This document shows positions 7,086 to 61,697 of a stretch of 64,000 bases of DNA, piece by piece. This DNA comes from Raineyella sp. W15-4 (GTDB lineage Bacteria > Actinomycetota > Actinomycetes > Propionibacteriales > Propionibacteriaceae). Numbering within the stretch: position 1 is the stretch's first letter; each line of letters begins with the position of its first letter. The stretch is taken from assembly GCF_033170155.1 (NCBI RefSeq), contig NZ_CP137079.1, forward strand, positions 1,736,001-1,800,000. The letters run 5' to 3'. The notes beneath the pieces were generated by a model. That model was not told the origin of the DNA. It was given only the letters and a program-made list of their open reading frames with translations, and ran no database searches. Position numbers and translations under genes: made by a program.

Positions 7086-7092
7086 GACTCCC

Positions 7093-14857: not shown

Positions 14858-16555
14858 CTACTTGCCCTGACGCTTCTGGATCGCCGCCCACTCGTCACGC
14901 AGTCCGACCGTCCGGTGGAAGAGCATCGGCGTCCGCGGATCGTGGGCGAAATAGCCCAGCCGCTCGAACTGCACCACCTCACCGGGCGCGGTCCGCTCGA
15001 GCGCGGCCTCGACCTTGCAGCCGGTCAGCACCTCACGCGAGTCGGCGTTCAGGTCGTCCAGCGGCTCCCCGGTCGCCGCGCCGGGAGCCTCGGCGGAGAA
15101 CAACCGGTCGTAGAGCACCGCGGTCGCGTCCACCGCGTGTGCCGCCGACACCCAGTGCATCGTCGACTTCACCTTGCGGCCGTCCGGGGCGGTGCCGCCG
15201 CGGGTCTGCGGATCGTAGGTGCAGTGCACCTCGACCACGGTGCCGTCGGCGTCCTTCACCACGTCGGTGGCGGTGACGAAGTAGGCGCCGCGGAGCCGGA
15301 CCTCGCGGCCGGGGGAGAGCCGGAAGTACTTCGGCGGCGGCACCTCGGCGAAGTCCTCCCGCTCGATGTAGAGCTCGCCGGTGAAGGCCACCTCGCGGGT
15401 GCCGTCGGTCTCGTCCTCCGGGTTGTTGACGACCGAGAAGTGTTCGACGACGGGAGTGCCGTCGGGAGCAGTCGGCCAGTTGGTGATCACCAGCCGGAGC
15501 GGGCGGGTCACCGCCATCCGGCGCTGTGCGGTGCGGTTGAGCTCACGGCGGACGAACGACTCCAGCAGCTCGATGCTCGGCCGGCTGTTGGTCCGGTTCA
15601 CCCCGACATAGCGGCAGAAGTCGCGGATCGCCGCGGCCGGGTAGCCGCGTCGGCGCAGCCCGCTGAGGGTGGGCATCCGCGGGTCGTCCCAGCCGTCGAC
15701 CAGGCCGTCGTGCACCAACTTCGCGAGCCGGCGCTTCGAGGTGACGGTGTGGGTCAGTTCCAGCCGGGCGAACTCCAGCTGCCGCGGCTGGTCCCCCGGC
15801 AGCGGCAGGTGCTCGAGGAACCAGTTGTACAGCGGGCGGTGGGACTCGAACTCCAGCGTGCACAGCGAGTGGGTGACCCCCTCGATCGCGTCGCTCTGGC
15901 CGTGCGCCCAGTCGTACGTCGGGTAGAGGCACCATGCGTCCCCGGTGCGGTGGTGGTGGCCCCGGCGGATCCGGTACATCACCGGGTCGCGCAGCTGCAT
16001 GTTCTCGTGCTGCATGTCGATCTTGGCCCGCAGCACCCGCGACCCGTCCGGGTACTCCCCGGCGCGCATCGCCCGCAGTTTGCGGAGGTTCTCCTCCGGC
16101 GGGGTGTCCCGGAACGGGCTCTCCACGCCCGGGTGGCCGTAGCCGCCGCGCTGGGCGGAGATGGTCTCGCTGTCCTGTTCGTCGACGTACGCCAGGCCCT
16201 GCTCGACCAGCAGCTCCGCCCAGGCGTACAGCTGCTCGAAGTAGTCGGAGGCGTAGACGATCTCCTCGGGGGTGTAGCCGAGCCAGCGGATGTCGTCGAT
16301 GATCGACGCGACGTACTCCTCGTCCTCGGTCTCCGGGTTGGTGTCGTCGAAGCGGAGCTTACAGGTGCCGCCGAAGTCCTCGGCGACGCCGAAATCGACC
16401 GTGATCGCCTTGGCGTGGCCGATGTGGAGGTAGCCGTTGGGCTCCGGGGGAAAGCGGGTCTGCACCCGGCCGCCGTACGTCCCCTGCTCGTTGTCGCGAC
16501 GCACCGCATCGCGGACGAAATCGCTGCTGGGGAAGGCGGTCTCGGGGGAGGTCAT
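14858..16555 (-). CDS. glnS: Glutaminyl-tRNA synthetase
   Basis: A 565-residue class I synthetase that charges tRNA-Gln directly. It shows the ERxxPEPNGYLHIGHAK-type active-site block (RFPPEPNGYLHIGHAK near residue 36), a KMSKS-equivalent VTSKRRL, and the two C-terminal anticodon-binding beta-barrels specific to GlnRS. ATG 16555 is preferred over a start eleven codons upstream because a TATTTT -10 element lies 7 bases before it. Many actinobacteria lack GlnRS and use GatCAB transamidation, so its presence is noteworthy. No other translation gene is adjacent. Confidence 0.95.
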   Translation of the reverse strand: MTSPETAFPSSDFVRDAVRRDNEQGTYGGRVQTRFPPEPNGYLHIGHAKAITVDFGVAEDFGGTCKLRFDDTNPETEDEEYVASIIDDIRWLGYTPEEIVYASDYFEQLYAWAELLVEQGLAYVDEQDSETISAQRGGYGHPGVESPFRDTPPEENLRKLRAMRAGEYPDGSRVLRAKIDMQHENMQLRDPVMYRIRRGHHHRTGDAWCLYPTYDWAHGQSDAIEGVTHSLCTLEFESHRPLYNWFLEHLPLPGDQPRQLEFARLELTHTVTSKRRLAKLVHDGLVDGWDDPRMPTLSGLRRRGYPAAAIRDFCRYVGVNRTNSRPSIELLESFVRRELNRTAQRRMAVTRPLRLVITNWPTAPDGTPVVEHFSVVNNPEDETDGTREVAFTGELYIEREDFAEVPPPKYFRLSPGREVRLRGAYFVTATDVVKDADGTVVEVHCTYDPQTRGGTAPDGRKVKSTMHWVSAAHAVDATAVLYDRLFSAEAPGAATGEPLDDLNADSREVLTGCKVEAALERTAPGEVVQFERLGYFAHDPRTPMLFHRTVGLRDEWAAIQKRQGK

Positions 16556-33832: not shown

Positions 33833-36800
33833 TCAGCGGGATCCGGCCCACCCCGACCGCGACACCGACCGCAGATGCCGCAGCACCACCGACACGGCCG
33901 CCAGTCCCGGCGCGGGAAGCTCCTGGAGCTGCAGCAGCGAACGGTGCGCCCGCTGGGCCGCGGCGGCGTTGTCCTGGATCCACTGCCGCAGCCGCTGGTC
34001 GACCTCTCCGCTGCCCGGCGTGCTGGCGATGACGGTGGCGGTGAGGGACTTCGCGGCGGCGTACACGTCGGCGCGGACGGCGCTGCGGGCCAGCGAGTCC
34101 CACAGTTCGTCGCGGGGCAGCGCGCTGATGCTGGTGAGCAGCCCGTCGATGTCGAACTGCTCGGTGACGGCGAAGTACAGCTCGGCCACGTCGGTGAGGT
34201 CCTCCTGCGCTCCCCTCGCGAGGTCGGTGATGTCCAGCAGGGCAAAGGCGTCGAGCAGCCCCTCCGTCCACCGGGCGAGATCCTCCGGCACCCCGGCGAT
34301 GGTGAGTTCGGTGACGTTCGTCTCGAACCGTTCCCGCTCCGCGCCGTGCAGCAGTTCGTCCATCCGCTGTTCGAAGGCGGCCACGCCCGGACGGTAGCGG
34401 TCGATGTCCGCGCCCAGGGCGGAGTGGGCGGGCCGTTCCAGCAGGATCCACCGGGTCGCCCGGTCGAGCAGCCGACGGGACTCGCGGTGCAGCCGCGCCT
34501 GCACCGCGGTGCCGGCCACGTTGTCGAGTGCCTTCACCCGTTGCATGAACCGGTCGATGTCGAAGACCTCGCGGGCCAGCACCAGCGCCCGGGCGATCTC
34601 GGGCATGGTGGCGCCGGTCTCCTCCAGGGCGCGTTGGGCGAAGGTCATGCCGCCCAGGTTGACCACCGAGTTGGCGACGACGTTGGTGATGATCTCGCGT
34701 CGCAGCGGGTGGCTCTCGGGCAGCCGTGGGAACCGTTCCAGGATCTGGCGGGGGAAGTAGCTGCGCAGCTCATGGCTGAACCACGCCTCGTCCGGCAGGC
34801 CACTGGCGTTGATGTCCTGCTTGAGGGCCAGCTTGACGTACGCCAGCAGGATCGAGCGCTCCGGGCTGGTCAGCCCCTCGTTCGACTTCTCCCGGGCGTG
34901 CAGCTCGGCGTCCGTGGGCAGCGACTCGAGCTCCCGGTCCAGCAGCCCCCGGTCCTCCAGGTAGTGCAGCAGCCGCAGATAGGCGCCCAGCCGTTTGCCG
35001 CCCCGCTCCCGGGAGTGCCCGAGCAGCACGTTCTGGCTGTAGTTGTCCTCCAGGACCAGCCGGACGACCTCGTCCGACATCTCCCGCAGCAGCCGGTTGC
35101 GCTGCTTGTAGGTCAGTTCACCGATCTGGATCAGGCCGGTGAGCGGGATCTTGAGGTTCACCTCGTGGTCGGAGGTGTCGACCCCGGCCGAGTTGTCGAT
35201 GGCGTCGGTGTTGAGATGGATGCCCCGGCGGGCGGCTTCGATCCGGCCGAGCTGGCTGAAGCCCAGATTGCCGCCCTCCCCCACGACCCGCACCCGCAGC
35301 TCGCTGCCGGTGATCCGGACCGGGTCGTTGGCCCGGTCGCCGATCTCGATGTCCGACTCGTCGGTCGCCTTGACGTAGGTGCCGATGCCGCCGTTCCACA
35401 GCAGATCCACCGGCGCCTGCAGCACCGCCCGGATCAGTTCGTGCGGCGACAGCTCGGTGACCCCGTCGGGGAGGCCGAGGGCAGCCCGGATCTGCTCGCT
35501 GACCGGGATGCTCTTGAGTGTACGGGAGAACACCCCGCCGCCGGCGGAGATCACCGCGCGGTCGTAGTCCTGCCAGGAGGACCGGCTGAGCTCGAACAGC
35601 CGCCGCCGCTCGGCCAGGGAGGCCGCCGCGTCGGGATCGGGATCCACGAAGATGTCGCGGTGGTCGAAGGCCGCCACCAACCGGATGTGCGCCGACAGCA
35701 GCATCCCGTTGCCGAAGACGTCGCCGGACATGTCGCCGATGCCGATGACGGTGAAGTCCTCGGCCTGGATGTCGCGGTCCAGCTCCCGGAAGTGCCGCTT
35801 CACCGACTCCCAGGCGCCCCGGGCGGTGATGCCCATCGCCTTGTGGTCGTAGCCGGTGGACCCCCCGGACGCGAAGGCGTCGTCCAGCCAGTAGGCGTAC
35901 GTACGGGCGATCGCGTTGGCGATGTCGGAGAACCGGGCGGTCCCCTTGTCCGCCGCCACCACCAGGTAGGTGTCGTCGCCGTCGTGCCGGACGACCCGGG
36001 GCGGTGGGATCGCCGCGCCGTCGACGACGTTGTCGGTGAGGTCGAGCAGGGCTGCGACGAACAGTTGGTAGGCCTCCCGGCCCCTGGTCGCCCAGCCCTC
36101 CCGGTCCACCGCAGGATCCGGCAGCCCCTTGGGGTAGAAGCCGCCCTTCGCCCCGGTCGGCACGATCACCGCGTTCTTCACGATCTGGGCCTTCACCAGC
36201 CCGAGGATCTCGGTGCGGAAGTCCTCGCGTCGTCCCGACCAGCGCAGCCCGCCCCGGGCGACCTTGCCGAACCGCAGGTGGACGCCCTCGACCCGGGGGC
36301 TGTAGACCCAGATCTCGTACAGCGGATGCGGCAGCGGCATCCCGGGGATGGTCGCCGGGGCCAGCTTGAGGGCGACGGTCGGCTGGGTGGTCGAGGCGTC
36401 GTGCGGGGCCTCCCGGGCGCGCTGGTAGTAGTTGGTCCGCAGCGTCCCACGGATCACGCCGAGGTAGCGGCGCAGGATCCGGTCCTCCTCCAGCGAGGGC
36501 ACCGCCCCGATCAGCGCGTCGAGTCGGGCGACGTCCTCGTCCTCGGCCTTGCGACGCTGCGGGCCGACGGTCCGTCCGCCGAACAGGTCGGGATCGAAGC
36601 GTACGCCGAAGAGTCGCACCAGCAGGGCGGCGATCTCGGGGTGCGCCAGCAGCACCGAGCGCAGGTAGCTCTGGGAGTAGGCGATGCCGATCTGGCGCAG
36701 GTAGCCGGTCACCGCCCGCAGGATGACGATCTGTCGCGAGGTGAGCCCGGCCAGCAGCACCAGCCCGTCCAGCTCGTCCGGCTCCGTCCGGCCCTCCCAG

Positions 36801-38683
36801 GCCGCGGCGAAGGCGTCCTGGAACCGTTCCCGGGTGTCCTCGCCCGCCCAGGTCGCGGCGCCGAGCGGGCGCAGGCCGAAGTCGTAGATGTGGAAGAGGG
36901 TGCCGTCGGAGCGCTCCAGGACGTACGGTCGCTCGCTGGTCACCTCGGTGCCGAGGTGGCTGAAGACCGGCAGGATGCCGCTGAGCGACAGCCAGCCGCG
37001 GCTGTACACCTTGAGTCGGCGTTCGTCGGCCGGGCTGGTCGGGGTGCGGTAGAGGTTGAGCCGCAGTTCGTCGGCGCCGATCCCTTCCAGTTCCCGCAGG
37101 TCGGCGGCGCCGACCCGGGGCGGGAAGACCTCCTTGTACGCGGTCGGGAAGCCGCCCCGGTAGGCCTCGGTGTAGAGATCGCCCAGCCCCTCGCCGAACT
37201 CCTCGATCATCGCCGCGCCGAGGTCCTCGTCCCAGTCCCGGGTGGCTTCGACGATCTGGCTCTCCAGGTCGTCCGGGTCGACCTCGGGGACCTGCCGGCC
37301 GGGCGCCATGTGCAGGATGAAGTGCAGCGTCGCCAGCGGCGATTCGGTGGCCCGGGTGGTGTAGTCCACCGTCTCGCCCTCGAGGCGCTCCCGCAGGATC
37401 CGCGAGACCTCCAGCCGGGCCGCGGTGTTGTAGCGGTCCCGGGGCAGGTAGACCAGGCAGGACATGAACCGGCCGAACGGGTCCCGGCCGAGGAACAGCC
37501 GGGTGCGGATCTGCTCGCGTAGCTGGACGATGGCCAGAGTGTTGCGGGTGAGTTCGGCCACATCGCAGCGGAACAGCTCGTCGCGGGGGTAGTTCTCCAG
37601 CTCGTTGAGCAGTGTCTTGCCGCTGTGCGAGTCGGGCGGGAACCCGGCGGCGTCGAGGACGGCGTTCACCTTGCCCATCAGGTAGGGCACCGTGGTCACC
37701 GACTCGTGGTAGGCGCTGGAGGTGAACAGCCCGACGAACCGGTGGCTGCCGGTCTCGGCACCGGCGGCGTCGTACGTCTTGACGACGATGAGGTCCATGA
37801 AGGCGCGCCGATGGACGGTGGCCCGGGTGTTGGCCTTGGTGACGAGCAGCGGGCCGGCGTCCCAGGCGGCCCGGGCCTCCACCGTGTCGAGGGGCAGCTC
37901 GGTCGCCCCTTCGGCCTGCCGCAGCACCCCGAGCCCGGTGCCGGGCACCGCCGCCGGGGCTCCGTCCTCGCCGACGCCGTACCGGACGTAGCCGAGGAAG
38001 ACGAACTGGTCGGCCAGCAGCCACTCCAGCAGATCCGTCGCCACGGCCGCGTCGGCGCGGTCCGCGGCGGCCAGCGCGGACGTCTCGCGGGTCGCCTGCC
38101 GGGCGTGCTCGACCATCTCCGCCCAGTCGTCGTAGGCGCTGCGGATGTCGGTCAGGGTGGAGCGGACGCCGGCCTCCAGCTGCTGCAGTGCCTCGCGGTC
38201 GGTGGTGCGGACCACCTCGAAGTGCATCCAGGACTCGTCGAGGCCTGCGGTCGGCTCGGGACCGCGGGCGGCGACGTCGAGCAGGGTGCCGTCCGCGGCG
38301 CGTTCGACGGTCATCTGCGGATGGGTGACGAACCGGACGTTGGCGCCCGCCTCCATCAGCGCCGCCGACACCGAGTCCACCAGGAACGGCATGTCGTCGA
38401 TGACGATCTGGACGACGGTGTTCCGGGTCCCCCAGCCGTCGGTCTCGACCGTCGGGGTGAACACCCGCACCCGGGTCTCGCCGAGGCGGCGTTGCGCGGC
38501 CAGCTGCCGGTGCGACAGGGCCGCCCCCAGCAGGTCCTCCGGCCGCAGGGTGGCCAGTGTCTCGGTGCTCAGGTCGCGCCAGAAGGCGCTGAGCAGCGCC
38601 AGCACCTCGTCCGGGTCCATCCCCTCGGCGCGTCCGGCGCCCGCGGCGAGCAGGGCATCGCGCTGCTCAAGAGACACGGCCAT
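33833..38683 (-). CDS. gdh2: NAD-specific glutamate dehydrogenase, large (GDH-180) type
   Basis: A 1616-residue enzyme of the large NAD-glutamate dehydrogenase family, which makes 2-oxoglutarate and ammonium from glutamate for catabolism. The N-terminal third holds ACT-like regulatory segments ([20 protein letters not shown] near residue 93); the catalytic domain follows at about residues 800-1250 with [31 protein letters not shown] and [19 protein letters not shown]. The long C-terminal domain is helical. The large size is normal for GDH180. It is transcribed as the gene before ilvD on the same strand, 97 bases upstream. Confidence 0.95.
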
Positions 38684-45698: not shown

Positions 45699-46142
45699 TC
45701 AGAAGTGGGCGGACGCCGGCGCCATCAGGGAGCGGAGCACCACCACGATCGCGTCGTCGGCCGGAAGCCACGGGACACTGCCCAGCTCGTCAGCACCGAG
45801 CCAGCGCAGCAGGTCGTGGGCGGGGCCGGGACGTACGTCGGTCCGGGCGGGCACCGCGAGCCAGACCCTGATCCGCCAGCCCTCGACGATCGGCCAGGCG
45901 CCGTCGGACATCGGGCCGCGGACCTCGGGACCGACGGTGATCGGCAGGGACAACTCCTCCGCCAGTTCGCGGTGCAGGGCCGCCAGGGGCTCCTCGCCGG
46001 CCTCCACCTTGCCGCCGGGGAATTCCCACCCGCCGGCCTGGGAAGTGGCGTGCCGGCGGGCCGCCAGCAGTCGGGTCGGTCGAGCCAGATCGTCCACCAG
46101 AGCGGCTGCGACGACAAGGTGCCGGTCGCGGGGGAAGCTCAT
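45699..46142 (-). CDS. Nudix hydrolase (MutT-like)
   Basis: A 147-residue Nudix protein that hydrolyses nucleoside diphosphate-linked compounds. The Nudix box is complete: GGKVEAGEEPLAALHRELAE then EL (G-x5-E-x7-REL-x-EE-L, residues about 43-64), directly after GGWEFPGG, which favours an 8-oxo-dGTP/MutT-type role. ATG 46142 is selected because it gives the usual MutT N-terminus; the longer frame would add 20 residues of low complexity. Confidence 0.9.
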   Translation of the reverse strand: MSFPRDRHLVVAAALVDDLARPTRLLAARRHATSQAGGWEFPGGKVEAGEEPLAALHRELAEELSLPITVGPEVRGPMSDGAWPIVEGWRIRVWLAVPARTDVRPGPAHDLLRWLGADELGSVPWLPADDAIVVVLRSLMAPASAHF

Positions 46143-46211
46143 GATGCCCACTCTCTCATGGCCCCTGCCGGCGTCGCAGCCGGGGCCGCGGTGATCAGAC
46201 ACAGACGGTGA

Positions 46212-47069
46212 TCAGGGGCAGGCCGTGATGGTCCCGCTCAGCTTCCGGTTGCTGATCACCGTCGACATGCCGGCCGGCCGGCCCGGGCACACCGAGGTGG
46301 GACTCCCCTTGTACTCGATGTTGAAGACGGCCTTGCCACCGGCGAGGAAGGCCTGGTATTGGTCACACTCCCGGTAGGCCACGCACTCCTCGTTCACGGC
46401 GAAGTCGACATCCTTCGCCAGGTCGTCGATCTGGTCCTCGTTGTTCTTGAGCCCGACGGCGAGACCCCGCTCGTGCGCCGCGGCCGCCAGGGCCCGCTGG
46501 TAGGCGATCTGGTCGGCCGCGCTGATCGGGAAGCCGGTGTCCTGGGTCCAGCCGTCGGTGTTGTCGGGGTCGATCGCGACGAAGCCCTTGCTCTTGCAGA
46601 CGTCCATCCGCGCCGTCATGATCGGCAGCAGGGTGCTGATCTGTCGTACGTCGAGCCATTTCTCCCCGGGCCACCCGTCGAGATCGTTCCCGATCACGCT
46701 GGCGGGGAAACTGTCCTTGTCCGGGCGGAAGTCCTCGTACGCGCCGGCGTTGAGGTAGCAGACCGAGGCCACGCCGCGGTCCCTGAGCTGCGTGACGTCG
46801 CTGGCGTTGGTGCGTTCCCAGTCGAGGTTGTAGACATCGAAAGGCCGGGAGAAGTCCACTTTCCCGGTGTACTGGATCAGGAAGGTGGCCCCGACGTCCG
46901 GAGCCCACCAGGGTCCCGCGGAGCTCGTGGTGCGGACCGTGCGGGCGACGGTCGGTGCGGTCTTCACCGTGTCCGGTTGGTTCCCCCGAGCGGCGTATGG
47001 CACGAGTCCGCATCCGCCGATCAGCGGCACGACACCGATCAGTATCGCGAGCCAGGTCTTCGCTCTCAC
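46212..47069 (-). CDS. GH114 endo-alpha-1,4-polygalactosaminidase-like lipoprotein
   Basis: A 285-residue predicted lipoprotein (signal peptide, lipobox LIGGC, Cys20). The rest is a GH114 TIM-barrel: QYTGKVDFSRPFDVYNLDW near 66, VCYLNAGAYEDFRPD near 103, GWPGEKWLDVR near 132, and the two candidate catalytic acids, Asp in DPDN (167-170) and Glu in NEEC (226-229). GH114 enzymes cut alpha-1,4-galactosaminide chains and include fungal Ega3. GTG 47069 follows an AGGAGA site and overlaps the stop of the previous gene (GTGA). It is last in the exopolysaccharide operon, suggesting polymer trimming at the cell surface. Confidence 0.88.
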   Translation of the reverse strand: MRAKTWLAILIGVVPLIGGCGLVPYAARGNQPDTVKTAPTVARTVRTTSSAGPWWAPDVGATFLIQYTGKVDFSRPFDVYNLDWERTNASDVTQLRDRGVASVCYLNAGAYEDFRPDKDSFPASVIGNDLDGWPGEKWLDVRQISTLLPIMTARMDVCKSKGFVAIDPDNTDGWTQDTGFPISAADQIAYQRALAAAAHERGLAVGLKNNEDQIDDLAKDVDFAVNEECVAYRECDQYQAFLAGGKAVFNIEYKGSPTSVCPGRPAGMSTVISNRKLSGTITACP

Positions 47070-47701
47070 CAGTTCTCCTGAAGGATCCGCCACGGGTTCG
47101 GGAGTCTTCCCGCCGTGGTCCAGTAATAGCCTGCCCCACCCGCCTCGGCCCGCGCCATAGCGTCGGGCTGCTGATCGGGAGGACAGGAATGGATCAGGTG
47201 CCACACCCGCCCGGGTTCGGCGGCGGTGACTCCTGGACTGTGCCTGGCGTAGGTCGGCCACGCCATTTCGGCCACACAGGTGACGTCCGCCCGGAGCACC
47301 AACTCGTCGGAGGCCGGGCGCCCGGGATTGGCCACCACGGTGGTGGCGCCCGCCGATCGCAGCCGGTCGATGACCTTCGGGCGCCAGTGCCGGGAGGCCA
47401 CCGGGGGGACGCGGTCGAGCATCACCGCGGTCACCGCGTAGCGCTCCTGCCAGGCTGCGAGGTCGGCCAGGACGGCGTCGCCCGTCCGGTCGCCGTACGC
47501 CACGTCGACATAGCCGACCACTGGCGTGCCCACGCCGGTCAGCGCCTCCCGGTAGCTGCCGTCCACCTCCCGGCCGGGCCCGTCGGCAACGTTGACGACG
47601 GCGAACGCGAGTCCGGCCTCTCCGGCCCGGAGCCGCTCCCAGGCGGCCGGTGCCTCCAGCGGGTGCACATACCACGGCGCGGCACGGTGCATGGTCCTCA
47701 C
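47066..47701 (-). CDS. Spherulin-4 family (GH135/Sph3-like) protein
   Basis: A 211-residue protein matching the spherulin-4 family: WYVHPLEAPAAWERL at the start, FAVVNVADGPG near 33, VVGYVDVAYGDR near 60, TAVMLDRVP near 86, TTVVANPGRPASDELV near 112 and the hallmark C-terminal RLPNPWRILQENW. Fungal Sph3, the founding GH135 member, cleaves galactosaminogalactan. No signal peptide is seen, so it may be cytoplasmic or use another export route. GTG 47701 overlaps the preceding stop as GTGA, and its own stop overlaps the GH114 start the same way. Confidence 0.82.
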   Translation of the reverse strand: MRTMHRAAPWYVHPLEAPAAWERLRAGEAGLAFAVVNVADGPGREVDGSYREALTGVGTPVVGYVDVAYGDRTGDAVLADLAAWQERYAVTAVMLDRVPPVASRHWRPKVIDRLRSAGATTVVANPGRPASDELVLRADVTCVAEMAWPTYARHSPGVTAAEPGRVWHLIHSCPPDQQPDAMARAEAGGAGYYWTTAGRLPNPWRILQENW

Positions 47702-49047
47702 CAGGCCTGGGGACGCGAGAGCCGATGGGTGACGATGATCGCCGCCGATGCCACCAGCACGGCGGTGACCAGGATGAAGTTCCCCGATTGCCAGGGCTCC
47801 TCGGCCGGCAGTCGATAGGTCAGGGCGAGGCCGCCCGCCGTACACGCCAGGACCGTGAACACCATCGCCCCGGTTGCCGCGCCGGTGCGCAGCAGCGCGT
47901 TGATGGTCGCGACGAGCGCGGCGGTGGCCGTCGCCGCGGTGATGGCGAGGGGCTCGTCCAGGTACACCCGATACGGGTCGTCCAGGACCCGGAACGCGAC
48001 CCAGACCGCGGCCGCGCAGAGTGCGAGCAGCAGTGGAGTGCCGATCGCTCCGGCCAGCGTCCGACCGGGGAACCACCGGGTGAGATGACTGCTGACCCAC
48101 CGGCCGAAGATCCGCGCCACAGCGAACAGCGGATCGGCCAGTACGCCTGCCACGAGGCCCGCGATCGCGACGGCGGCGAAGGCCCCCGGGCCGATCCGGA
48201 GGAAGATCACCAGCAGCAGGCCAAGGTGGGCGAGGGTCTGGATCAGCGCCACCGTCACGGCGCCGACCGTGCCGGGGACGATCCGGGAACGTGCGGTCCG
48301 GATCGCCTCCCCGGCCGCGGAGGCTGCTGCCACCGACGCCAGCGCGGTTGCGCCGACCGCCAGCACCAACACCTGCCAGTACGCGCCGAACGTCCAGGCG
48401 AGGGCGGACACGGCTCCCGCGATGCCGACCAGGGCCACCAGCAACGGGCCCGGTCGCAGGGTCACCAGCAGCGGCGCGCTGCACGCCCAGAGCACCCAGA
48501 TCATCACGGTGGGTTCGCGGAGCGCGATCCAGGTGGCGATCCCCAGCAGCACCATGATGCCGCAGGTGATCATCGCTCCTCGGACGGCGTCACCCCGGGG
48601 ACCGCGCCCCAGCCCGTGCCAGAGCGCCGCGCTGACCACTTGAGCGGTCAACCAGCCGGCCGCGGCGATCACGAAGACCACCACTTCGACGGACTCGCGA
48701 GGCATGGTGGACACGCAGATGACGACTCCGGCGAGCATGACGACAGCTCGGCCCAGCGCTGCCCACAGCAGGTGGCTGCGGGCGGACCGCCGTCCCCGTC
48801 GGGTTCGCCCACGGGGCACCGGGTCCCTCTCCCCGAGCAGCTGCTGCGCCCACCCGGCGGTCGAGGCATGCCCGGCGGCGCGGGCGGCGCGGTCGGAGAA
48901 CCCCGACGCCTCGAGGTGGGCCGTCACGTCCCACAGGTCGACCCCGATGGCGGCCGCGTCCTCCGGCGTGGGCCGGTGGTCCGCACCCGGGCCGGCCGGT
49001 GCTCGCCCGGCACCGGCCATCGGGTGTGCAGCGCTCGTCGCGGACAT
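47698..49047 (-). CDS. Twelve-helix membrane protein of the exopolysaccharide operon (PelG-like position)
   Basis: A 449-residue protein with about 80-90 hydrophilic N-terminal residues and then around twelve hydrophobic helices in pairs up to the C-terminus. Topology and place in the operon, directly after PelF, match PelG, the polysaccharide-flippase partner of PelF in Pel systems, but I do not see the characteristic N-terminal motif of PelG (MAGIGFELRK), so it may be a distant or unrelated functional equivalent. ATG 49047 overlaps the PelF gene's stop (TGATG) and has AGGGGAGGGG just upstream. Confidence 0.6.
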   Translation of the reverse strand: MSATSAAHPMAGAGRAPAGPGADHRPTPEDAAAIGVDLWDVTAHLEASGFSDRAARAAGHASTAGWAQQLLGERDPVPRGRTRRGRRSARSHLLWAALGRAVVMLAGVVICVSTMPRESVEVVVFVIAAAGWLTAQVVSAALWHGLGRGPRGDAVRGAMITCGIMVLLGIATWIALREPTVMIWVLWACSAPLLVTLRPGPLLVALVGIAGAVSALAWTFGAYWQVLVLAVGATALASVAAASAAGEAIRTARSRIVPGTVGAVTVALIQTLAHLGLLLVIFLRIGPGAFAAVAIAGLVAGVLADPLFAVARIFGRWVSSHLTRWFPGRTLAGAIGTPLLLALCAAAVWVAFRVLDDPYRVYLDEPLAITAATATAALVATINALLRTGAATGAMVFTVLACTAGGLALTYRLPAEEPWQSGNFILVTAVLVASAAIIVTHRLSRPQAW

Positions 49048-50654
49048 CAGCCCCTCCCCTCGGTCAGCACGTTGTCCTTCGTGTCGCTCCTTGCTGCCAG
49101 GTCGTTCCCTGCGGCGATCTGCACAGCCGGCACCGGCACGACACGGATCGTGGCCGGCACCGCCTCGGACCTCCGCACCCTGCGTCGCTGCCGTTCGACA
49201 GTCGTGCCCGGCGCGGCGATCCACGGAGGTGTCTCGGCGCTCTGCACGGTCCGGTATGCCTGGCGATAGCGCTCGGTGAAGAGGTCCAGGTTGAACATCG
49301 CGAGGGCCCGGCTGCGGGCGCGCCGCCCCATCGCACGGCGCTCCTCGTCCCGGGTGAGGAGTCGGACCAGCGCGGAGGCCATCGCGTCCGGATCCCTGGG
49401 GGGCACCAACACCCCGCACATCCCGTCGTCGCCGACCACCTCCCCGACACCTCCGACATCGGTGTTGACGGTGGCACGACCGGCCATCATCGCCTCGATG
49501 ACGGTGTAGGGCAGCCCCTCGGAGATGCTCGACAGGGCGATCACGTGACCCGCCTCCAGCGCCGGCACGGCCGAGGAAACGGCTCCTTCGAAGGTGACCA
49601 CGCCGGCCAGGCCGGCTTCGGCGGCCTGCCGGACCAGGTCGTCGCGGTAGCGCTCGTTGCCGTTGGGCGTGGGCCCGAACAGGCGCAGCCGGACGTCAGG
49701 CACATCACGGCGCACGATCTCCACCGCGGAGATCAGGGTGGCCAGGTCCTTCAGCGGGTCGATGCGACCGACGAACGCGATCGTGGGCTCCGCCGGCTCC
49801 GTCGTGATCTCCTGGAAGAGGTCGGTCTCGACACCGTTGTGGATCGTCTCGATCTTCTCGGGGTCCGCTCCCAGCAATTGCTCCCAGCCGTCATTGAACC
49901 GGCTGACGGGCGTGATCCGGATCGCCTCCTCGTACGTCACCCGGCTCAGCGCCCGCAAGAAGGCGCTCACCGCGCGGCGGGCCGGCCAGCTCAGGTCGGT
50001 GCGCGCCAGCGCCAGATAGCGTTCCCGCAGATAGATGCCGTGCTCGGTGAGCAGGATCGGCGTGCCCGCCGACCACCACCGGCCGAGGGCGAGCAGGGCA
50101 CTCGGACCGTTCGCGGCGACGTGACTCAGATCGAATTCCGGGAACGGTATGTCCGCCAGGGCCAGCATCCGGTCCACGTGGGCGGTCGCCTGCACCGCAT
50201 CCGCCAGGGACAGCGGAGGCAGTTCCGGGCGGACCCGACGCTGGGCGCGCCAGGCCGCCAGCAGCGCCCGTGCAGAGCCGTCCCCCGCGAGCATCCTGGA
50301 CAATCTGACCCCGTGCCAGCCGGTCAGGCCCCGCAACGCCTGCGAGAATCCCCCGACGTCGGTTGCGTCGTCCGTCGCCGCCGGCAGGGCGGCCGACCAG
50401 ATCCGCCCGAGGAGGTCCTCCAGCGCGCGCCGCCGCCGCGGTACGACGGCCGGTCGCATCGGCCCCCACATCGGGATGAGGGTGGTCTCGGTGACGTTGC
50501 CGGGTGTCCGTACGACCGCGCGTTCGTCGGAGCCGATGATCGACACCGGGACGAACGTATGCTCCGGCATGCCGTTGATGAGGAGCTCGCACCAGCGGGT
50601 CACCCCACCCCGGACCACCGGGTAGGTGCCTTCGGTGAAAAGGCCGATACGCAT
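49047..50654 (-). CDS. PelF-type glycosyltransferase (GT4)
   Basis: A 535-residue GT-B-fold glycosyltransferase. The N-terminus RIGLFTEGTYPVVRGGVTRW is the PelF/GT4 signature, LTEHGIYLRERYLALA near 210, SRFNDGWEQLLGADPEKIETI near 262, GRIDPLKDL near 303, and the nucleotide-sugar-binding SSISEGLPYTVIEAMMAGR near 386. PelF uses UDP-sugars to build the GalNAc/GlcNAc-containing Pel chain in the cytoplasm. The C-terminal 75 residues are an Arg-rich extension. ATG 50654 is preferred by spacing to a GGGGGT site; the gene starts 11 bases after the deacetylase gene. Confidence 0.88.
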   Translation of the reverse strand: MRIGLFTEGTYPVVRGGVTRWCELLINGMPEHTFVPVSIIGSDERAVVRTPGNVTETTLIPMWGPMRPAVVPRRRRALEDLLGRIWSAALPAATDDATDVGGFSQALRGLTGWHGVRLSRMLAGDGSARALLAAWRAQRRVRPELPPLSLADAVQATAHVDRMLALADIPFPEFDLSHVAANGPSALLALGRWWSAGTPILLTEHGIYLRERYLALARTDLSWPARRAVSAFLRALSRVTYEEAIRITPVSRFNDGWEQLLGADPEKIETIHNGVETDLFQEITTEPAEPTIAFVGRIDPLKDLATLISAVEIVRRDVPDVRLRLFGPTPNGNERYRDDLVRQAAEAGLAGVVTFEGAVSSAVPALEAGHVIALSSISEGLPYTVIEAMMAGRATVNTDVGGVGEVVGDDGMCGVLVPPRDPDAMASALVRLLTRDEERRAMGRRARSRALAMFNLDLFTERYRQAYRTVQSAETPPWIAAPGTTVERQRRRVRRSEAVPATIRVVPVPAVQIAAGNDLAARSDTKDNVLTEGRG

Positions 50655-50665
50655 CACGCCACCCC

Positions 50666-52840
50666 CTATCGCCACTCGGCACTGGACGGGAAGCCGGATG
50701 ATCCGGCCGTTTCGAACTCGGCCTGCGCGCCGGGGGCCAGCTCCACCCAGGCCGAGCGTTGGCCGGCGTACGCCTCGCCGAACAGGCCCGTGGCCATTTC
50801 GGCCGAGACGGTGTCCGCGCCGTCGGGCAGGCTGACCGGCACCCGCACCGGGTGATCTGCATGGTTGATCAGCTTCACCCGTGAACCCGAGACGGTCGCG
50901 TCCACCAGGCTCTGGTCGGTGTCCCAGGCCTGCCGGTCGACGACGGCCTGGCCGGCGTCCGACATGGAGGGGTTGATCAACGGTACGGAGTCCGAGTAGA
51001 CGTCGGCCCGACGGCTCAGCGCCTGGTCCAGGATCGGGTAGAGGAGCCGCTGGGAGGTCAGGTTGCTCTGGTGCACGAAGTGCGGACGGGGATCGTCGCT
51101 GATCATGTGGGTGAAGATCTTGTCCGCCTCCATCGGGAGGATGACGTCGTTGAAGCCGGTGTCGAGGTCGACCGGTGCGACGCATTCGGTCTGCGAATCC
51201 GGCGCCGCACATTCGCCGCTCCCGCCGTCGGCGAGGGAGTCGTTCTTCCAGTTGTAGAGCGATACGACCTGCCGCATGGTCGGCGTGTCGTAGTCGAGGT
51301 CGATCGGCGTGCGCGGCACGGTGTTGGCCGATCCGATCCGGCGCGAGCCGTTCTCGTCCGAGTCGTCGCTCGCGGTCCAGAGGATCCCGGCCCGGGTCAG
51401 GACGTCGGCCAGGGCCGGATTGTCGTCGGGCTGCTGGGGCGGCTTGCGGAGGCCGGAGTGCTCACCGGTGACCAACTCCGTCGTCGAGAAGTTGTCCAGC
51501 TTCATCTTCCGCATGAACTCCTGGTTCGTGACGATCTCGCGGGCCAGGGTGTCCGCGGGGACCCACTGGATCGCACCGTTCACTTCGACGCAGTGCCAGT
51601 CGTTGGGAAGCAGGACCTGCTGGCAGCCGAGGAACGCATGGGTGTACGTGTGGTTGAGCAGCCGCAGGTCCGCGGTCACCTGCACCAGCCGGTCGGCCAG
51701 CGGGTCCCTCCCGCCGTGGGTCTGGGCGTACTCCGCGGCTCCCGCGCCGTTCAACGCCAGGTCGATCTTCACGCCGCTGGCCTTCTGCCAGGCGACGAGC
51801 GCGTCCAGGTCGGCGGGCACCATCCTGATGGTCGCGTCCGGGCCCGTGGTGGGGATGGTGGGCGGGCAATTCCGGCCGATCTCGCATTTGCCCTCGACGC
51901 TCCACTGGGAGTTCGGAAGGAAGAGGTCATCGGCATGGACGGAGAAGTAACTCCGGAAATGTGACACCGAGACGTCGCGGGTGACCCAGCGAATCATGCC
52001 GTGGGCCAGGAGCTTCACGGATTCGTCGCCGGCGTTGCTGTTGAACGAGACGATCATCCGTTCGCGACCGCTGCGGACCTCCGCACGGATGAGCGTGGCG
52101 GGGGTCTTGGTGCCCGGGAAGAGCATCGTCAGGAACGGAGTGGTCTGCACGCCCTTGATCGGGCCGGGATTGCGCACCAGGGCCGCCTCGGTGTCGTCGT
52201 TGCCCGGGTCGATCTGGACGGCACCTCGGAGATAGGAGAACGCTCCCGCCTCCCCCTGGCTCGTGACAGTGGTCTTCGCGCCGTCGATCGGCCCCCGATA
52301 CACGGTGCTCTGGGGCACGTCGAGGGCGAGGTCGGTGGTGGGGGCGGTCTCGATCAGCCGGACGTTGAAGGTCGACTGGTAGGTGCTCAGCAGCTGCTGT
52401 TCGGTGGCCGTCAGCAGGGCGGACCCCGCCCGGGGGGCGATGATCGCCGAGAAATGACCGTGGGCGCCTCCCGCGTCCTGCGATGCCAGCAGCGTGGACG
52501 TGACGTTGTGGCCCGGACCGGCCGTGAGATCGACGCGAGTGAACGGCACCCCCTCGGTCTTCAGCTGATTCCGCAGGGCTTCCGCCCAGCTGCCGCCGTC
52601 GTCGAGCACGAGCACGCGGAGGGCGACATCGGAGTTGCCGGCCGGCGCGGCCGGGTGCGCTGCCGTGGTCGTATTCTGGGTCGGCGCCGAGCCCGCCACC
52701 GGCGTGACGTCGGCTTTCACCGAGCATCCGGCGCACAACAGCACCACCGCGAGAACGGCGGCCGATGAACGCCGCAGCTTCGGGCCCGGACGACGTCCCG
52801 GTGGACGTGAATGTCCTGTGGACAAGTTCGAATCGCGCAT
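50666..52840 (-). CDS. Polysaccharide deacetylase-like lipoprotein (Agd3/PelA-deacetylase type)
   Basis: A 724-residue predicted lipoprotein: the signal ends in the lipobox CAGC with Cys39. Residues about 72-290 form an N-terminal alpha/beta region starting VALRVLVLDDGGSWAEALRN. The deacetylase part shows HADDLFLP (302-309), giving the metal-binding/base Asp pair, and NHTYTHAF with the paired histidines 397 and 401, the two main metal motifs of NodB-like carbohydrate esterases. Several CxxxxC pairs suggest secreted, disulfide-stabilised parts. It is first in the operon and should remove acetyl groups from GalNAc-type polymer outside the cell. ATG 52840 follows a GGGGGTGGC site. Confidence 0.8.
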   Translation of the reverse strand: MRDSNLSTGHSRPPGRRPGPKLRRSSAAVLAVVLLCAGCSVKADVTPVAGSAPTQNTTTAAHPAAPAGNSDVALRVLVLDDGGSWAEALRNQLKTEGVPFTRVDLTAGPGHNVTSTLLASQDAGGAHGHFSAIIAPRAGSALLTATEQQLLSTYQSTFNVRLIETAPTTDLALDVPQSTVYRGPIDGAKTTVTSQGEAGAFSYLRGAVQIDPGNDDTEAALVRNPGPIKGVQTTPFLTMLFPGTKTPATLIRAEVRSGRERMIVSFNSNAGDESVKLLAHGMIRWVTRDVSVSHFRSYFSVHADDLFLPNSQWSVEGKCEIGRNCPPTIPTTGPDATIRMVPADLDALVAWQKASGVKIDLALNGAGAAEYAQTHGGRDPLADRLVQVTADLRLLNHTYTHAFLGCQQVLLPNDWHCVEVNGAIQWVPADTLAREIVTNQEFMRKMKLDNFSTTELVTGEHSGLRKPPQQPDDNPALADVLTRAGILWTASDDSDENGSRRIGSANTVPRTPIDLDYDTPTMRQVVSLYNWKNDSLADGGSGECAAPDSQTECVAPVDLDTGFNDVILPMEADKIFTHMISDDPRPHFVHQSNLTSQRLLYPILDQALSRRADVYSDSVPLINPSMSDAGQAVVDRQAWDTDQSLVDATVSGSRVKLINHADHPVRVPVSLPDGADTVSAEMATGLFGEAYAGQRSAWVELAPGAQAEFETAGSSGFPSSAEWR

Positions 52841-53154: not shown

Positions 53155-54561
53155 TCAGAGATTGATCATGTGGCCGGCGATGCCCTCAGCGGCTTCCTTG
53201 AGCGTCTCGGAGAGGGTCGGGTGGGCGTGGATCGACCGGCCGATCTCCTCGGCGGTGAGGTCCCAGGTCTGGGCCAGGACGAGCTCGGGCAGCAGCTCGG
53301 TGACCTCCGGGCCGATCATGTGGGCACCGAGGATCTCGCCGTACGTCGCGTCGGCGACGATCTTGACGAAGCCGACCGTCTCTCCCATGCCGCGCGCCTT
53401 GCCGTTGGCGGAGAAGGGGAACTTCGAGACCTTGACGTCGTAGCCGAGCTCCTTGGCCTTCTCCTCGGTGTAGCCGAAGGCGGCGATCTGCGGCTGGCAG
53501 TAGGTGGCGTGCGGGATCATGTCGTAGTTGATCGGCATCGTCTCGGCACCGGCGATGGTCTCCGCCGCCACCACGCCCTGGGCCTCGGCGGTGTGGGCGA
53601 GCATCAGCTTGGCGGTGACGTCGCCGATCGCGTACACGCCGGGCACGTTGGTGCGCATGTAGTCGTCGATCTCGATCGCGCCGCGCTGGGTGAGCGCCAC
53701 ACCGGTGTTCTCCAGGCCGTACCCCTGGGTGCGGGGGGCGAAGCCGAAGGCCGACAGCATCCGGTCGGCCTCCAGGATCTGCTGTTCGCCGCCGGCCGCC
53801 GGCTCGACGGTGATCCGTACGCCGGTGCCGGTGTCCTCGACCTGCTTGACCGCGGTGCTCGTGAGGACCTTGATGCCGAGCTTCTTGTACGCCTTCTGCA
53901 GCTCCTTGCCGAGTTCGGCGTCCTCGACCGGGATCATCCGGTCCAGGTACTCGACGATGGTGACGTCGACACCGTACGAGTTGAGGACGTAGGCGAACTC
54001 GGTGCCGATCGCGCCGGCCCCGCCGATGATGATCTTCTGCGGCAGGCTGTCGGAGAGGATCAACTCCTCGTAGGTCAGCACATTGGCGGAGCGCTGCATG
54101 CCGGGCAGCATCCGGGTGACCGAACCGGTGTCGATGATGACGTTGTCCGCGGTGATCGTCTCGACCGAGCCGTCGTTCAGGGCGATCTCGAGGGTCTTGG
54201 CGTCCTTGAAGGTGCCCCAGCCGTCGTACTCCTTGACCTTGTTCTTCTTCATCAGGTAGTGCACACCGGCGGCGGACTTCGAGGCGACGTCGCGGGAGCG
54301 GCTGTAGGCCTTGCCGTAGTCGAGCCGCACCTCACCGTCGATGCTGAAGCCGAAGAGGTCGCGGTCATGGGTGAAGATGTGCGCGAGCTCCGCGTTGCGC
54401 AGCAGCGCCTTCGTCGGGATGCAGCCGACGTTGAGACAGACACCACCCCAGTACTTCTTCTCGACGATGGCGGCTGACAGGCCCAGCTGGGCGGCGCGGA
54501 TCGCCGCGGTGTACCCACCGGGCCCGGCGCCCAGGACAACGACGTCAAAGTGTGCGGTCAT
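53155..54561 (-). CDS. lpd: Dihydrolipoyl dehydrogenase
   Basis: A 468-residue flavoprotein disulfide reductase, the E3 component of 2-oxoacid dehydrogenase complexes. FAD motif [21 protein letters not shown] (residues 6-26), redox disulfide [16 protein letters not shown] near 40-53, NAD motif [13 protein letters not shown] near 175-187, second FAD motif [18 protein letters not shown] near 305, and the C-terminal His-Glu pair in [16 protein letters not shown] 54561 fits TAAGGT seven bases upstream. It diverges from the MurA-like gene. Confidence 0.95.
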
Positions 54562-54568
54562 GGCCTCA

Positions 54569-59587: not shown

Positions 59588-59977
59588 ATGGCTGATCGTT
59601 CTCTGCGCGGATCCGGCCTCGGGTCCAAGAGTTTCGAGGACGAGGTGGGTGTGGACTTCGCCCCGCGCCAGGAAGTGGGCTTCGACTGCCCCCAGGGACA
59701 CCACTTCGAGCTGACCTTCGCCGAGGAGGCCGAACTGCCGACCGTGTGGGAGTGCCCGCGGTGCGGTCAGGAGGCCAAGCGGTCCGACGGCGTCGAGCCC
59801 GAGGTGAAGGAGGCGAAGCCTCCGCGTACGCACTGGGACATGCTCCTGGAGCGTCGCTCGCTCGCCGATCTGGAGGAACTCCTCTCGGAGCGGCTGGAGG
59901 AGGTCCGGACCACCGGTGCGATCAGCACCGACGAGTACATGCGCCGGACCACCCCGCCGTCGAAGAAGCACCGCTGA
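59588..59977 (+). CDS. rbpA: RNA polymerase-binding protein RbpA
   Basis: A 129-residue actinobacterial transcription factor that binds RNA polymerase and the principal sigma factor to stabilise open complexes. The RbpA core domain is at about residues 25-75 with the zinc/beta-barrel cysteines in FDCPQGHHFELTF and WECPRCGQEA, followed by the basic linker and the C-terminal sigma-interaction domain (RTHWDMLLERRSLADLEELL). AGGAGG precedes the ATG by seven bases. A sigma-R-type promoter lies upstream, and a hairpin terminator downstream. Confidence 0.96.
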   Translation: MADRSLRGSGLGSKSFEDEVGVDFAPRQEVGFDCPQGHHFELTFAEEAELPTVWECPRCGQEAKRSDGVEPEVKEAKPPRTHWDMLLERRSLADLEELLSERLEEVRTTGAISTDEYMRRTTPPSKKHR

Positions 59978-60001
59978 CCCGGTGCCGACCGGCACTGCAG
60001 C

Positions 60002-60029
60002 GAGCCCCGGACCATCCGGTCCGGGGCTC
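60002..60029. terminator. Hairpin terminator between rbpA and ppm1
   Basis: Perfect 12-base-pair stem (GAGCCCCGGACC and its complement) with loop ATCC between two convergent genes. No T-run; probably works for both. Confidence 0.7.
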
Positions 60030-60087
60030 CGTCATGTCAGGGCTCCCGTCAGTCAGGACTCGGCAGGTCAGGCTCGGTCACGCGACC

Positions 60088-60903
60088 TCAGGCGGCGGGG
60101 GTGACGCCGCGCGGGCCCCTGCCGATCAGCCGCCGCAGCTGCGCGCCGCGCCGCTTCAGCCCCCAGGCGGTGGTCCGGGCCAGCGACTCGAAGAAGATGC
60201 TCCGGTCCAGCTTCGACTCACCGTACTGGCGCTCCTCGAAGGTGATCGGCACCTCGACCACGGAGTGACCGGTTTCGAGGGTGTTGATCGTCATGTCGGT
60301 CTGGAAGAAATAGCCGGCTGCGGCGATGTTGTCCAGACCGATGTCGCGCAGCGTCTGGGCCCGGAACACGTTGTAGCCCCCGGTGACGTCCTTGACGCGT
60401 ACGCCCAGCAGGATCCGGGTGTAGAGGTTGCCGGCCCGGGAGAGGTACTCGCGCGACTTCGGCCAGTTCACCACCGTGCCACCCGGCACCCACCGGGACC
60501 CCTTGACCATGTCGGCGCGGTCGAGCGCCGCCAGCAGCCGGGGCAGTTCCTCCGGGCGGTGCGACCCGTCGGCGTCCATCTCCACCAGGACGTCGAAGCC
60601 CTGCTCCAGCCCCCACCGGAAGGCGGCGACGTACGCCGCCGCCAAGCCCTCCTTGCCCCGGCGGTGCAGCACGTGGATCCGGCTGTCCGCGCCCGCCAGG
60701 CGATCGGCGATGTCGCCGGTGCCGTCCGGGGAGTTGTCGTCCACCACGACCACATCGGCCGACGGGACGGCGGCACGCAGCCGGCCGACGATCGACTCGA
60801 TGTTCTGGGCTTCGTTGTAGGTGGGGATGCAGACCAGGACCTTGCGATCAGACCCTCCCGGGATCTGCTGGGCGGTGCTGGTCCGGGTGGTGGGTTGCGT
60901 CAT
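60088..60903 (-). CDS. ppm1: Polyprenol monophosphomannose synthase
   Basis: A 271-residue GT2 enzyme that transfers mannose from GDP-mannose to polyprenyl phosphate, making the lipid-linked mannose donor for extracytoplasmic mannosylation. Motifs: CIPTYNEAQNIESIV (residues 25-39), VVVDDNSPDGTGDIADRL (52-69), EMDADGSHRPEELPRLL (108-124; the DAD metal site), and GYFFQTDMTINTLETG with QYGESKLDRS near 220-229. The C-terminal lipid-anchor membrane domain of fused mycobacterial Ppm1/Lnt is absent; in many genera the two are separate. Neighbouring rbpA is a conserved actinobacterial arrangement. Confidence 0.93.
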   Translation of the reverse strand: MTQPTTRTSTAQQIPGGSDRKVLVCIPTYNEAQNIESIVGRLRAAVPSADVVVVDDNSPDGTGDIADRLAGADSRIHVLHRRGKEGLAAAYVAAFRWGLEQGFDVLVEMDADGSHRPEELPRLLAALDRADMVKGSRWVPGGTVVNWPKSREYLSRAGNLYTRILLGVRVKDVTGGYNVFRAQTLRDIGLDNIAAAGYFFQTDMTINTLETGHSVVEVPITFEERQYGESKLDRSIFFESLARTTAWGLKRRGAQLRRLIGRGPRGVTPAA

Positions 60904-60912
60904 CGTCGTCTG

Positions 60913-61533
60913 TCATTCCTCGTTGTGGTCGGTTGCGGTGTGGTCGGTGGCGGCCTGAGTGCGCGACCGCAGCTCCGCGGCGCGCTTCTCGATCTGTTCC
61001 CGAGCATCCCGCGTCCACCGCAGCCAGGTCTCCTGGAGGTCCCGCAGTCCTGCCCTGGGATCGAGCTCGGGGCGGTCGGGCACCTCGGCCACCTGGGTGC
61101 CCCACGGCGTCGGCGGCTCCGGCAGCGGATTCGCCACCACCACCGTCGCGTTCGCCCGGGCGACCACCAGCGGTCGCTCCAGCACGTACGAGGCGGTGGG
61201 GGGCAGCTTCGGATTGTCCTCGTCGAGGCGCTGCGCCTCCCGACAGGTCACCCTGGCCTCCATCCCCAACTCGCGGCTGGTGCTGCCGACGCCCACGACG
61301 ACGGCCTCGACCTCCAGCACGTCGCCCGCATAGATCGGGGCGAGGAAGTCGATCTCGTCGTACGCCACGATGGCGCCCTCGTCGGCATCGGTGCGGATGC
61401 ACACCTCGGTGGCCGCATCGGAGAGCAACGACATCGTGTACGAATGATCGACCTGGCTGCCCGAGTAGTGGGTGTGGTTGTGGCCGACGTACCGACTGTG
61501 GGTGACGGTGAGGCCGATGCGGGGATCGCTCAT
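60913..61533 (-). CDS. Hotdog-fold protein of the thioesterase/beta-aminoacyl-CoA ammonia-lyase type
   Basis: A 206-residue protein whose first 130 residues are a hotdog domain: GHNHTHYSGSQVDHSYTMSL with the acyl-CoA-binding His, SDAATEVCIRTDADEG and AYDEIDFLAPIYAGDVLEVE followed by GVGSTSRELGMEARV. These blocks are closer to the 3-aminobutyryl-CoA/beta-alanyl-CoA ammonia-lyases than to classical thioesterases. The remaining about 75 residues are a charged helical tail. It lies 9 bases upstream of ppm1 on the same strand, probably by chance of packing; no amino-acid fermentation genes are adjacent. Confidence 0.75.
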   Translation of the reverse strand: MSDPRIGLTVTHSRYVGHNHTHYSGSQVDHSYTMSLLSDAATEVCIRTDADEGAIVAYDEIDFLAPIYAGDVLEVEAVVVGVGSTSRELGMEARVTCREAQRLDEDNPKLPPTASYVLERPLVVARANATVVVANPLPEPPTPWGTQVAEVPDRPELDPRAGLRDLQETWLRWTRDAREQIEKRAAELRSRTQAATDHTATDHNEE

Positions 61534-61697
61534 GGCACCACGATACCGGTCGTCACCGCGGCGTCCGGTCCGGCTCTCCGGGAGGGATCGTCTGCACGGA
61601 CAGGTCGCGCGGTCGCCGCCTCGGCGCGCTCCTCGGGGCCGATCCGGTGGGCCCGCCGCGATGGATCAGTGGGCTGACGGGAGGTGCTCGCGGGCGG

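Follow-up and report, generated by a model that had tools for sequence, protein, structure and literature searches.

Cationic galactosamine polymers matter in the biofilms of both fungi and bacteria. In Aspergillus, the galactosaminogalactan (GAG) cluster comprises uge3, sph3, gtb3, ega3 and agd3 (PMC10485009). Homologues of the deacetylase Agd3 were reported from 45 bacterial species by Bamford et al. (2020), and in 30 of the 35 species of their tree the genes lie in or near operons of carbohydrate-active enzymes; all of these operons contain a cytoplasmic glycosyltransferase and a multi-spanning membrane protein, GH114 is highly consistent among them, and spherulin-4 is present in some operons of Actinobacteria (PMC7229062). 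Here we describe a five-gene unit on the minus strand, at 46212-52840, of a 64,000-nucleotide stretch of Raineyella sp. W15-4 (contig NZ_CP137079.1, positions 1,736,001 to 1,800,000; hereafter the window). The genes, named A to E in the order of transcription, are as follows.

52840-50666, minus strand: gene A, 724 amino acids (aa), Agd3-type (CE18) deacetylase by family
50654-49047, minus strand: gene B, 535 aa, PelF-type glycosyltransferase
49047-47698, minus strand: gene C, 449 aa, polytopic membrane protein
47701-47066, minus strand: gene D, 211 aa, GTG start, spherulin-4/Sph3 relative
47069-46212, minus strand: gene E, 285 aa, GTG start, GH114 lipoprotein by prediction

The unit shares the CE18 enzyme, the glycosyltransferase, the polytopic membrane protein and the GH114 enzyme with the operons of Bamford et al. 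and, like some of their actinobacterial examples, also has spherulin-4. Since operons of this kind have already been described there, the locus is a further member and its combination of genes is not new. We consider it likely that the unit is a compact member of the CE18/PelF/GH114/spherulin-4 exopolysaccharide operons and operates as a GAG-like system by the mechanism proposed below. New here are the absence of the operon from congeners, a copy flanked by insertion sequences (IS) on a Kocuria plasmid, and the division of the operons into a compact and an extended form. The relevant section of Bamford et al. is silent on a leaderless D, the family of the membrane protein, mobility and the compact/extended split (PMC7229062), and none of the literature matches listed mentions an Sph3 relative without a leader, the C family, an IS-flanked copy or two architectures.

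Genes A and B are separated by a gap of 11 bases, and B/C, C/D and D/E overlap by 1, 4 and 4 bases, respectively. All of these coordinates, the strand and the spacing, when re-measured, match those in a preliminary description of this DNA. That description had also read the five genes as one operon, which the tight spacing and the conserved gene order uphold. In 54 of the 58 named loci of at least 18 kb, A, B and D lie on one strand in the order seen here, and 46 of these 54 loci also have E; the arrangement is therefore not due to chance, and the synteny check agrees with an operon conserved across actinomycetes. The remaining loci are one rearranged locus and three with A alone.

Enzymes of the five-gene unit

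A profile built from 12 A sequences, the window's included, retrieved Agd3 of Aspergillus (6nwz) as its top match in the PDB (E 4.4e-9), with heparan-sulfate N-deacetylase far behind (E 0.026), and the alignment also covers the N-terminal region of Agd3. At E<=0.1 the 12 members match the Pfam families Agd3_CE (7), CBM87_Agd3 (6), HSNSD-CE (3) and Polysacc_deac_1 (1); the window's A scores 16.8 bits on CBM87_Agd3, below the cut-off of 27.6. The catalytic-motif residues of Agd3 comprise the base, the metal triad, the arginine of catalytic motif 3 (CM3) and the histidine of CM4 (PMC7229062). D304/D305, H397/H401, R510 and H590 of A align with D377/D378, H510/H514, R613 and H668 of Agd3. All six residues are invariant in the 97 aligned rows, and the four CE18 motifs (Asp pair, HxxxH, CM3 Arg and CM4 His) are all present in A. 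By family, A is an Agd3-type (CE18) polysaccharide de-N-acetylase. The preliminary description had called it a deacetylase-like lipoprotein; the deacetylase part stands, now with a class, and lipidation is doubtful, because a lipobox-like pattern precedes the match in just 2 of 100 A loci. The hydrophobic leader of the window's A ends in LCAGC, a non-canonical lipobox by eye.

The GH114 assignment of E is carried by Pfam PF03537 (254.7 bits; cut-off 27) and by a phmmer match to Ega3 in the PDB (6oj1, E 5.3e-50). Both catalytic acids are found, D169 at Ega3 D189 in all 60 rows and E227 at Ega3 E247 in 57, the other three rows having gaps. With a lipobox, IGGC, ending at Cys20 (by eye), E is by sequence a GH114 endo-alpha-1,4-polygalactosaminidase-type lipoprotein, as first described. 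Similarly, B exceeds the cut-off of the NCBIfam PelF model NF038011 (142.2 bits against 100) and matches Pfam DUF3492 at its N-terminus and Glycos_transf_1; E379 and E387 of its EX7E motif are each kept in 85 of 86 rows. Its earlier assignment as a PelF-type protein is thus retained, and we class B as a PelF-type GT4 glycosyltransferase on these family matches.

D matches Pfam PF12138 (spherulin-4) with 73.8 bits (cut-off 30.2), and a profile of 18 D sequences retrieved Sph3 (5c5g) from the PDB with an E value of 2.9e-28, in keeping with its first description as spherulin-4/GH135-like. The putative catalytic residues of Sph3 are D166, E167 and E222 (PMC10485009). In a second account the nucleophile and acid/base are one Asp, printed as 196, and E222, and E167 is given neither role (PMC12054363). 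D96 of the window's D aligns with Sph3 D166 and is kept in 71 of 71 rows, and E145 aligns with E222 and is kept in 70. At the position of E167 the window's D has R97, and the 71 rows have Q (36), R (33) or C (2). Because this position is never Glu, we call D an Sph3 relative and a possible member of GH135.

With relatives of agd3, sph3 and ega3 confirmed by profile or sequence matches, next to a glycosyltransferase gene, the parallel with the Aspergillus GAG cluster that had been drawn at the outset is sustained. There are also differences. Gtb3 is an integral membrane glycosyltransferase (PMC12054363), whereas the glycosyltransferase and the membrane part are separate proteins in the window; furthermore, the unit has no epimerase gene, and its Sph3 relative is leaderless and without an equivalent of E167.

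The GTG start of D overlaps the stop codon of C and lies eight residues ahead of the first barrel motif, leaving D without a leader. By one and the same measure, a hydrophobic stretch occurs upstream of the match in 4 of 75 D loci, compared with 57 of 60 E loci and 83 of 100 A loci, and 1 of 75 D loci has a lipobox-like pattern, compared with 51 of 60 E loci. Among the 73 D loci that have the barrel-start motif, 9 show an in-frame stop no more than 20 codons ahead of it, so that a leader is impossible there; at the other D loci, where the upstream frame is open, a leader is unlikely, though possible. At one odd locus (L072), a lipobox-like stretch lies ahead of D. Since it has no signal peptide, D is probably cytoplasmic. 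Trimming by D at the cell surface, as the preliminary description had proposed, does not fit this predicted location, which is unlike that of the extracytoplasmic fungal Sph3.

The same observations bear on the idea that, instead of synthesis, the genes are used to attack or consume fungal GAG or the Pel of other bacteria. Soil actinomycetes meet fungi, and the three enzyme families could degrade GAG or Pel. However, the overlapping unit also encodes a glycosyltransferase and a membrane protein, D lacks a leader, and none of the five genes resembles an uptake or sugar-catabolic gene. We hold this explanation to be highly unlikely.

Membrane protein C and its relation to Pel

Hydropathy analysis of C gives 12 peaks, in agreement with the 12-helix membrane protein first described, and its N-terminal helical part carries the motif D..[ED].[AT]A.LE..G. 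For comparison we aligned 27 membrane proteins chosen by their position after B, not by similarity; the resulting mixed profile, being assembled by position, need not represent a single family. The invariant columns lie mainly in the N-terminal motif, and none of the 27 proteins matches a Pfam family at E<=0.1. BLAST with the window's C finds it in 3 of the 58 named loci of at least 18 kb, and elsewhere C was placed by position and motif. A profile search for a relative of C with a solved structure gave no credible match, the best (E 0.62) being to receptors.

In hhalign comparisons with the mixed profile, the membrane protein encoded beside pelF on a Deinococcus plasmid reaches a probability of 99.6% and the Kocuria plasmid membrane protein 98.2%, with 0.1% for an unrelated transporter of the window as control. 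A profile of the four closest C proteins reaches 84.7% over 56 N-terminal residues against Kutzneria, and 0.5% against the Deinococcus protein. In view of these two values we lowered the claim of kinship between C and the Deinococcus protein, which would run through intermediates. C probably belongs to an actinomycete family that accompanies the PelF-type gene.

The Gram-positive pelDEADAFG operon (Whitfield et al. 2020, PMC7112168) resembles the unit in having a PelF-type glycosyltransferase by a polytopic protein, a deacetylase and a hydrolase. The window unit could accordingly be pictured as the remaining core of a true Pel operon of this type, in which C would be a PelG that has diverged; NCBIfam identifies B as PelF, and the multi-helix C directly follows B as PelG follows PelF in loci L156 and L157. 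On the other hand, the unit has no PelD, PelE or PelG, and its deacetylase and hydrolases are relatives of other families. The PelG family PF16933 gives no match for C (E<=1) or for any of the 27 members (E<=0.1), the 26 membrane proteins aligned with C among them, and hhalign against PelG returns 0.1% for both the mixed profile and that of the four closest C proteins, although a PelG profile of two sequences makes these tests weak. No PelG above the cut-off is found in the window genome, and 2 of the 198 sampled genomes of the phylum have one, at 459-471 bits. The identification of C with PelG, as suggested earlier, was rejected on sequence. The earlier view of a PelA split into separate proteins is likewise abandoned: PelA has been placed in CE21 (PMC12022489), whereas A is of the CE18/Agd3 type, and the kinship of D and E is with GH135 and GH114 rather than with GH166, the hydrolase family of PelA. 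A reduced Pel operon is, in our view, very improbable.

Matches to PF16933 just over the cut-off were also seen in 2 of 30 genomes, as short C-terminal stretches of frames longer than 1250 aa, away from the operon. In the Streptomyces-like loci L146-L152, PelG C-terminal matches of 23-35 bits lie in frames of 1257-1397 aa off the operon.

Compact and extended operons and the proposed pathway

In 59 named loci B precedes D on one strand, and the distances between the two genes fall into two groups. In 14 compact loci, which resemble the window, the gap is 1.3-1.8 kb and can accommodate only C; in 45 extended loci it is 3.9-4.8 kb. All 45 extended loci have the dehydratase-type motif TSTSETYG between B and D, and 44 of them a nucleotidyltransferase motif; neither motif occurs in any of the 14 compact loci. 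TSTSETYG was read from two proteins and then counted, and is therefore a motif chosen after looking. In the two extended loci that were searched, from Streptomyces and Kutzneria, a dehydratase, a nucleotidyltransferase and a second short-chain dehydrogenase/reductase lie downstream of C (L082:14168-16839 and L142:13992-16611). On the LegB 4,6-dehydratase model their two dehydratases reach 454 and 459 bits, just below the cut-off of 475. The Deinococcus plasmid operon has the same gene types (L176:5759-8714), and no spherulin-4 was seen in the stretch covered.

The extra genes hint that the extended form feeds a 6-deoxy-hexosamine into the polymer. This raises the question of whether the product of the whole group, including the compact form, could be an alpha-linked aminosugar polymer other than one of galactosamine (GalN) and N-acetylgalactosamine (GalNAc), for example of an N-acetylfucosamine-like 6-deoxy-hexosamine, whose precursor the compact form would draw from elsewhere in the genome. 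The two motifs of the extended operons, the near-threshold LegB scores and the Deinococcus operon all favor such a polymer. However, neither motif occurs in the compact loci, and the best match to LegB in the window genome is 129 bits, so the window form gives no sign of 6-deoxy-hexosamine, yet GalE of this genome is above its cut-off (443 bits against 262.3). In addition, a GalNAc/GalN polymer is the substrate of the characterised enzymes Agd3, Sph3 and Ega3. For the window we judge the 6-deoxy polymer unlikely and keep to the GAG-like one.

The GAG-like system would work as follows. Inside the cell, B would polymerise a nucleotide-activated hexosamine, most likely uridine diphosphate (UDP)-GalNAc, which the chromosomal GalE might supply, into an alpha-1,4-linked chain, and C, paired with B, would carry the chain across the membrane. 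Exported A would then remove some of the acetyl groups, making the polymer cationic and adhesive; Agd3 deacetylates alpha-1,4-GalNAc oligomers (PMC7229062). The lipoprotein E would cut de-acetylated stretches outside the membrane and thereby set the length of the polymer or release it; de-acetylated GAG is the specific substrate of Ega3 (PMC7229062). The substrate of Sph3 is acetylated GAG (PMC12054363); D may cut acetylated nascent or stalled chains inside the cell. We infer that the product is an alpha-1,4-linked GalN/GalNAc polymer, which may serve adhesion or biofilm formation, with the limit set by the possible use of 6-deoxy-hexosamine in the extended operons.

Several observations weigh against this pathway. 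As a single sequence, A has nothing above the cut-off in Pfam or NCBIfam, and D as a single sequence has no match at E<=1 among solved structures. Glu is absent from the Sph3 E167 position in all 71 D rows, and the homology of C across the operons would depend largely on the N-terminal motif. The sequence of PelF does not tell which nucleotide sugar is used, nor that of GalE whether UDP-N-acetylglucosamine is accepted. The 4,6-dehydratase motif in 45 of the 59 placed loci hints at a different sugar there, and among the literature matches listed there is no characterised product of actinomycete operons of this kind.

A bolder form of the proposal would see the unit as a transposable GAG factory, complete in itself, whose mechanism differs from that of Pel. 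The PelF-type glycosyltransferase and C would form a two-protein synthase/translocon that replaces PelD, PelE and PelG in actinomycetes and perhaps Deinococcota; the cytoplasmic Sph3 relative, with its altered active site, would clear or prime chains inside, the CE18 and GH114 enzymes would mature them outside, and the extended form would swap in a 6-deoxy-hexosamine. We put this forward tentatively and regard it as rather doubtful. The locus bears on whether a PelF-type glycosyltransferase and one membrane protein can suffice without PelD, PelE and PelG, and on the job of an Sph3 relative inside the cell. It also bears on a bacterial origin of the fungal cluster, a possibility to which Bamford et al. 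had already pointed (PMC7229062). With its five genes, the compact form is of a size that would allow its transfer as a whole into a laboratory host.

Distribution, probable gain and neighboring features of the operon

A scan of named genomes with A returned at least 540 relatives, of which the best 80 were kept; the genera among the matches listed are Streptomyces, Dactylosporangium, Kutzneria, Kocuria, Dermacoccus, Granulicoccus, Propioniciclava and others. In the family, Propionibacteriaceae, A has matches in 4 of 197 genomes (E<=0.001). Setting aside the own genome and one N-terminal match of 57 residues leaves two relatives, evidently Granulicoccus phenolivorans and Propioniciclava soli. 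The order has matches in 9 of 293 genomes, 5 of them over most of the protein, and the class in 28 of 394, 24 of them over most of the protein (own genome included in both counts); 20 of these 24 belong to one genus of large genomes. Weak matches were not counted as members, whether short (G032, G064, G084, G607) or partial or distant (G071, G454). By the class count such operons are common in actinomycetes, yet the literature matches listed include no proven product.

Trees of A and B, with 33 rows each of 97 and 86, are broadly alike, and both pair the window with L008, evidently Granulicoccus, at a support of 100; the B of L072 forms a very long branch. L066-L068 were left out because they are the same loci as L009, L047 and L008, and A rows below 150 bits and translated pieces shorter than 100 aa were left out of the alignments. 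At L050, L051, L072 and L045, the genes A, B, D and E are rearranged, duplicated or on opposite strands.

Two genes bound the unit in the window.

53155-54567, minus strand: upstream neighbor, presumably a dihydrolipoamide dehydrogenase (lpd)-like gene, 88-91% identical in 3 of 3 congeners
45699-46202, minus strand: downstream neighbor, NUDIX hydrolase gene (Pfam NUDIX), which adjoins lpd in the operon-free congeners

A was not found in any of the three congeners. In all three, lpd and NUDIX are still neighbors, 0.1-2.9 kb apart, and their junction contains no operon gene at E<=1e-5. With the operon absent and the two neighbors kept in all three, gain by this species is the simpler reading than loss, and the gain was probably horizontal. 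The slot between lpd and NUDIX (L169, L170, L171) holds other genes in one congener, which we take to be 5'-nucleotidase-like and CutC-like, and little in the other two, and may be a site of insertion. The NUDIX match of L171 is split into two pieces that overlap and lie in different frames.

Among plasmids, A as query gave 13 records, and five of these contain 80% or more of the query at a single site. The Kocuria rosea RP1 plasmid NZ_CP126484.1 (L175), typed as mobilizable, carries the same five genes in the same order as the window. Its A, B, D and E are 35-49% identical to those of the window, and its C matches weakly (E 1e-4) in the N-terminal part. Unlike the window unit, the Kocuria locus lies between two copies of a transposase gene, in IS copies at 6583-7526 and 14976-15919, each of 944 bases, 99.9% identical and inverted. 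This arrangement suggests that the five-gene unit has moved as one piece; transposition as a unit is put no higher than suggested because no target-site duplication was found around the IS pair.

A scan for sigma-70 promoters returned none, and a terminator scan returned one terminator-like site on the opposite strand, a count not above that in shuffled sequences. Elsewhere in the window, a 643-aa frame at 59746-61677 on the plus strand has no Pfam match at E<=1e-5, and 33833-38683 encodes a large NAD-dependent glutamate dehydrogenase of 1616 aa, which is ordinary.

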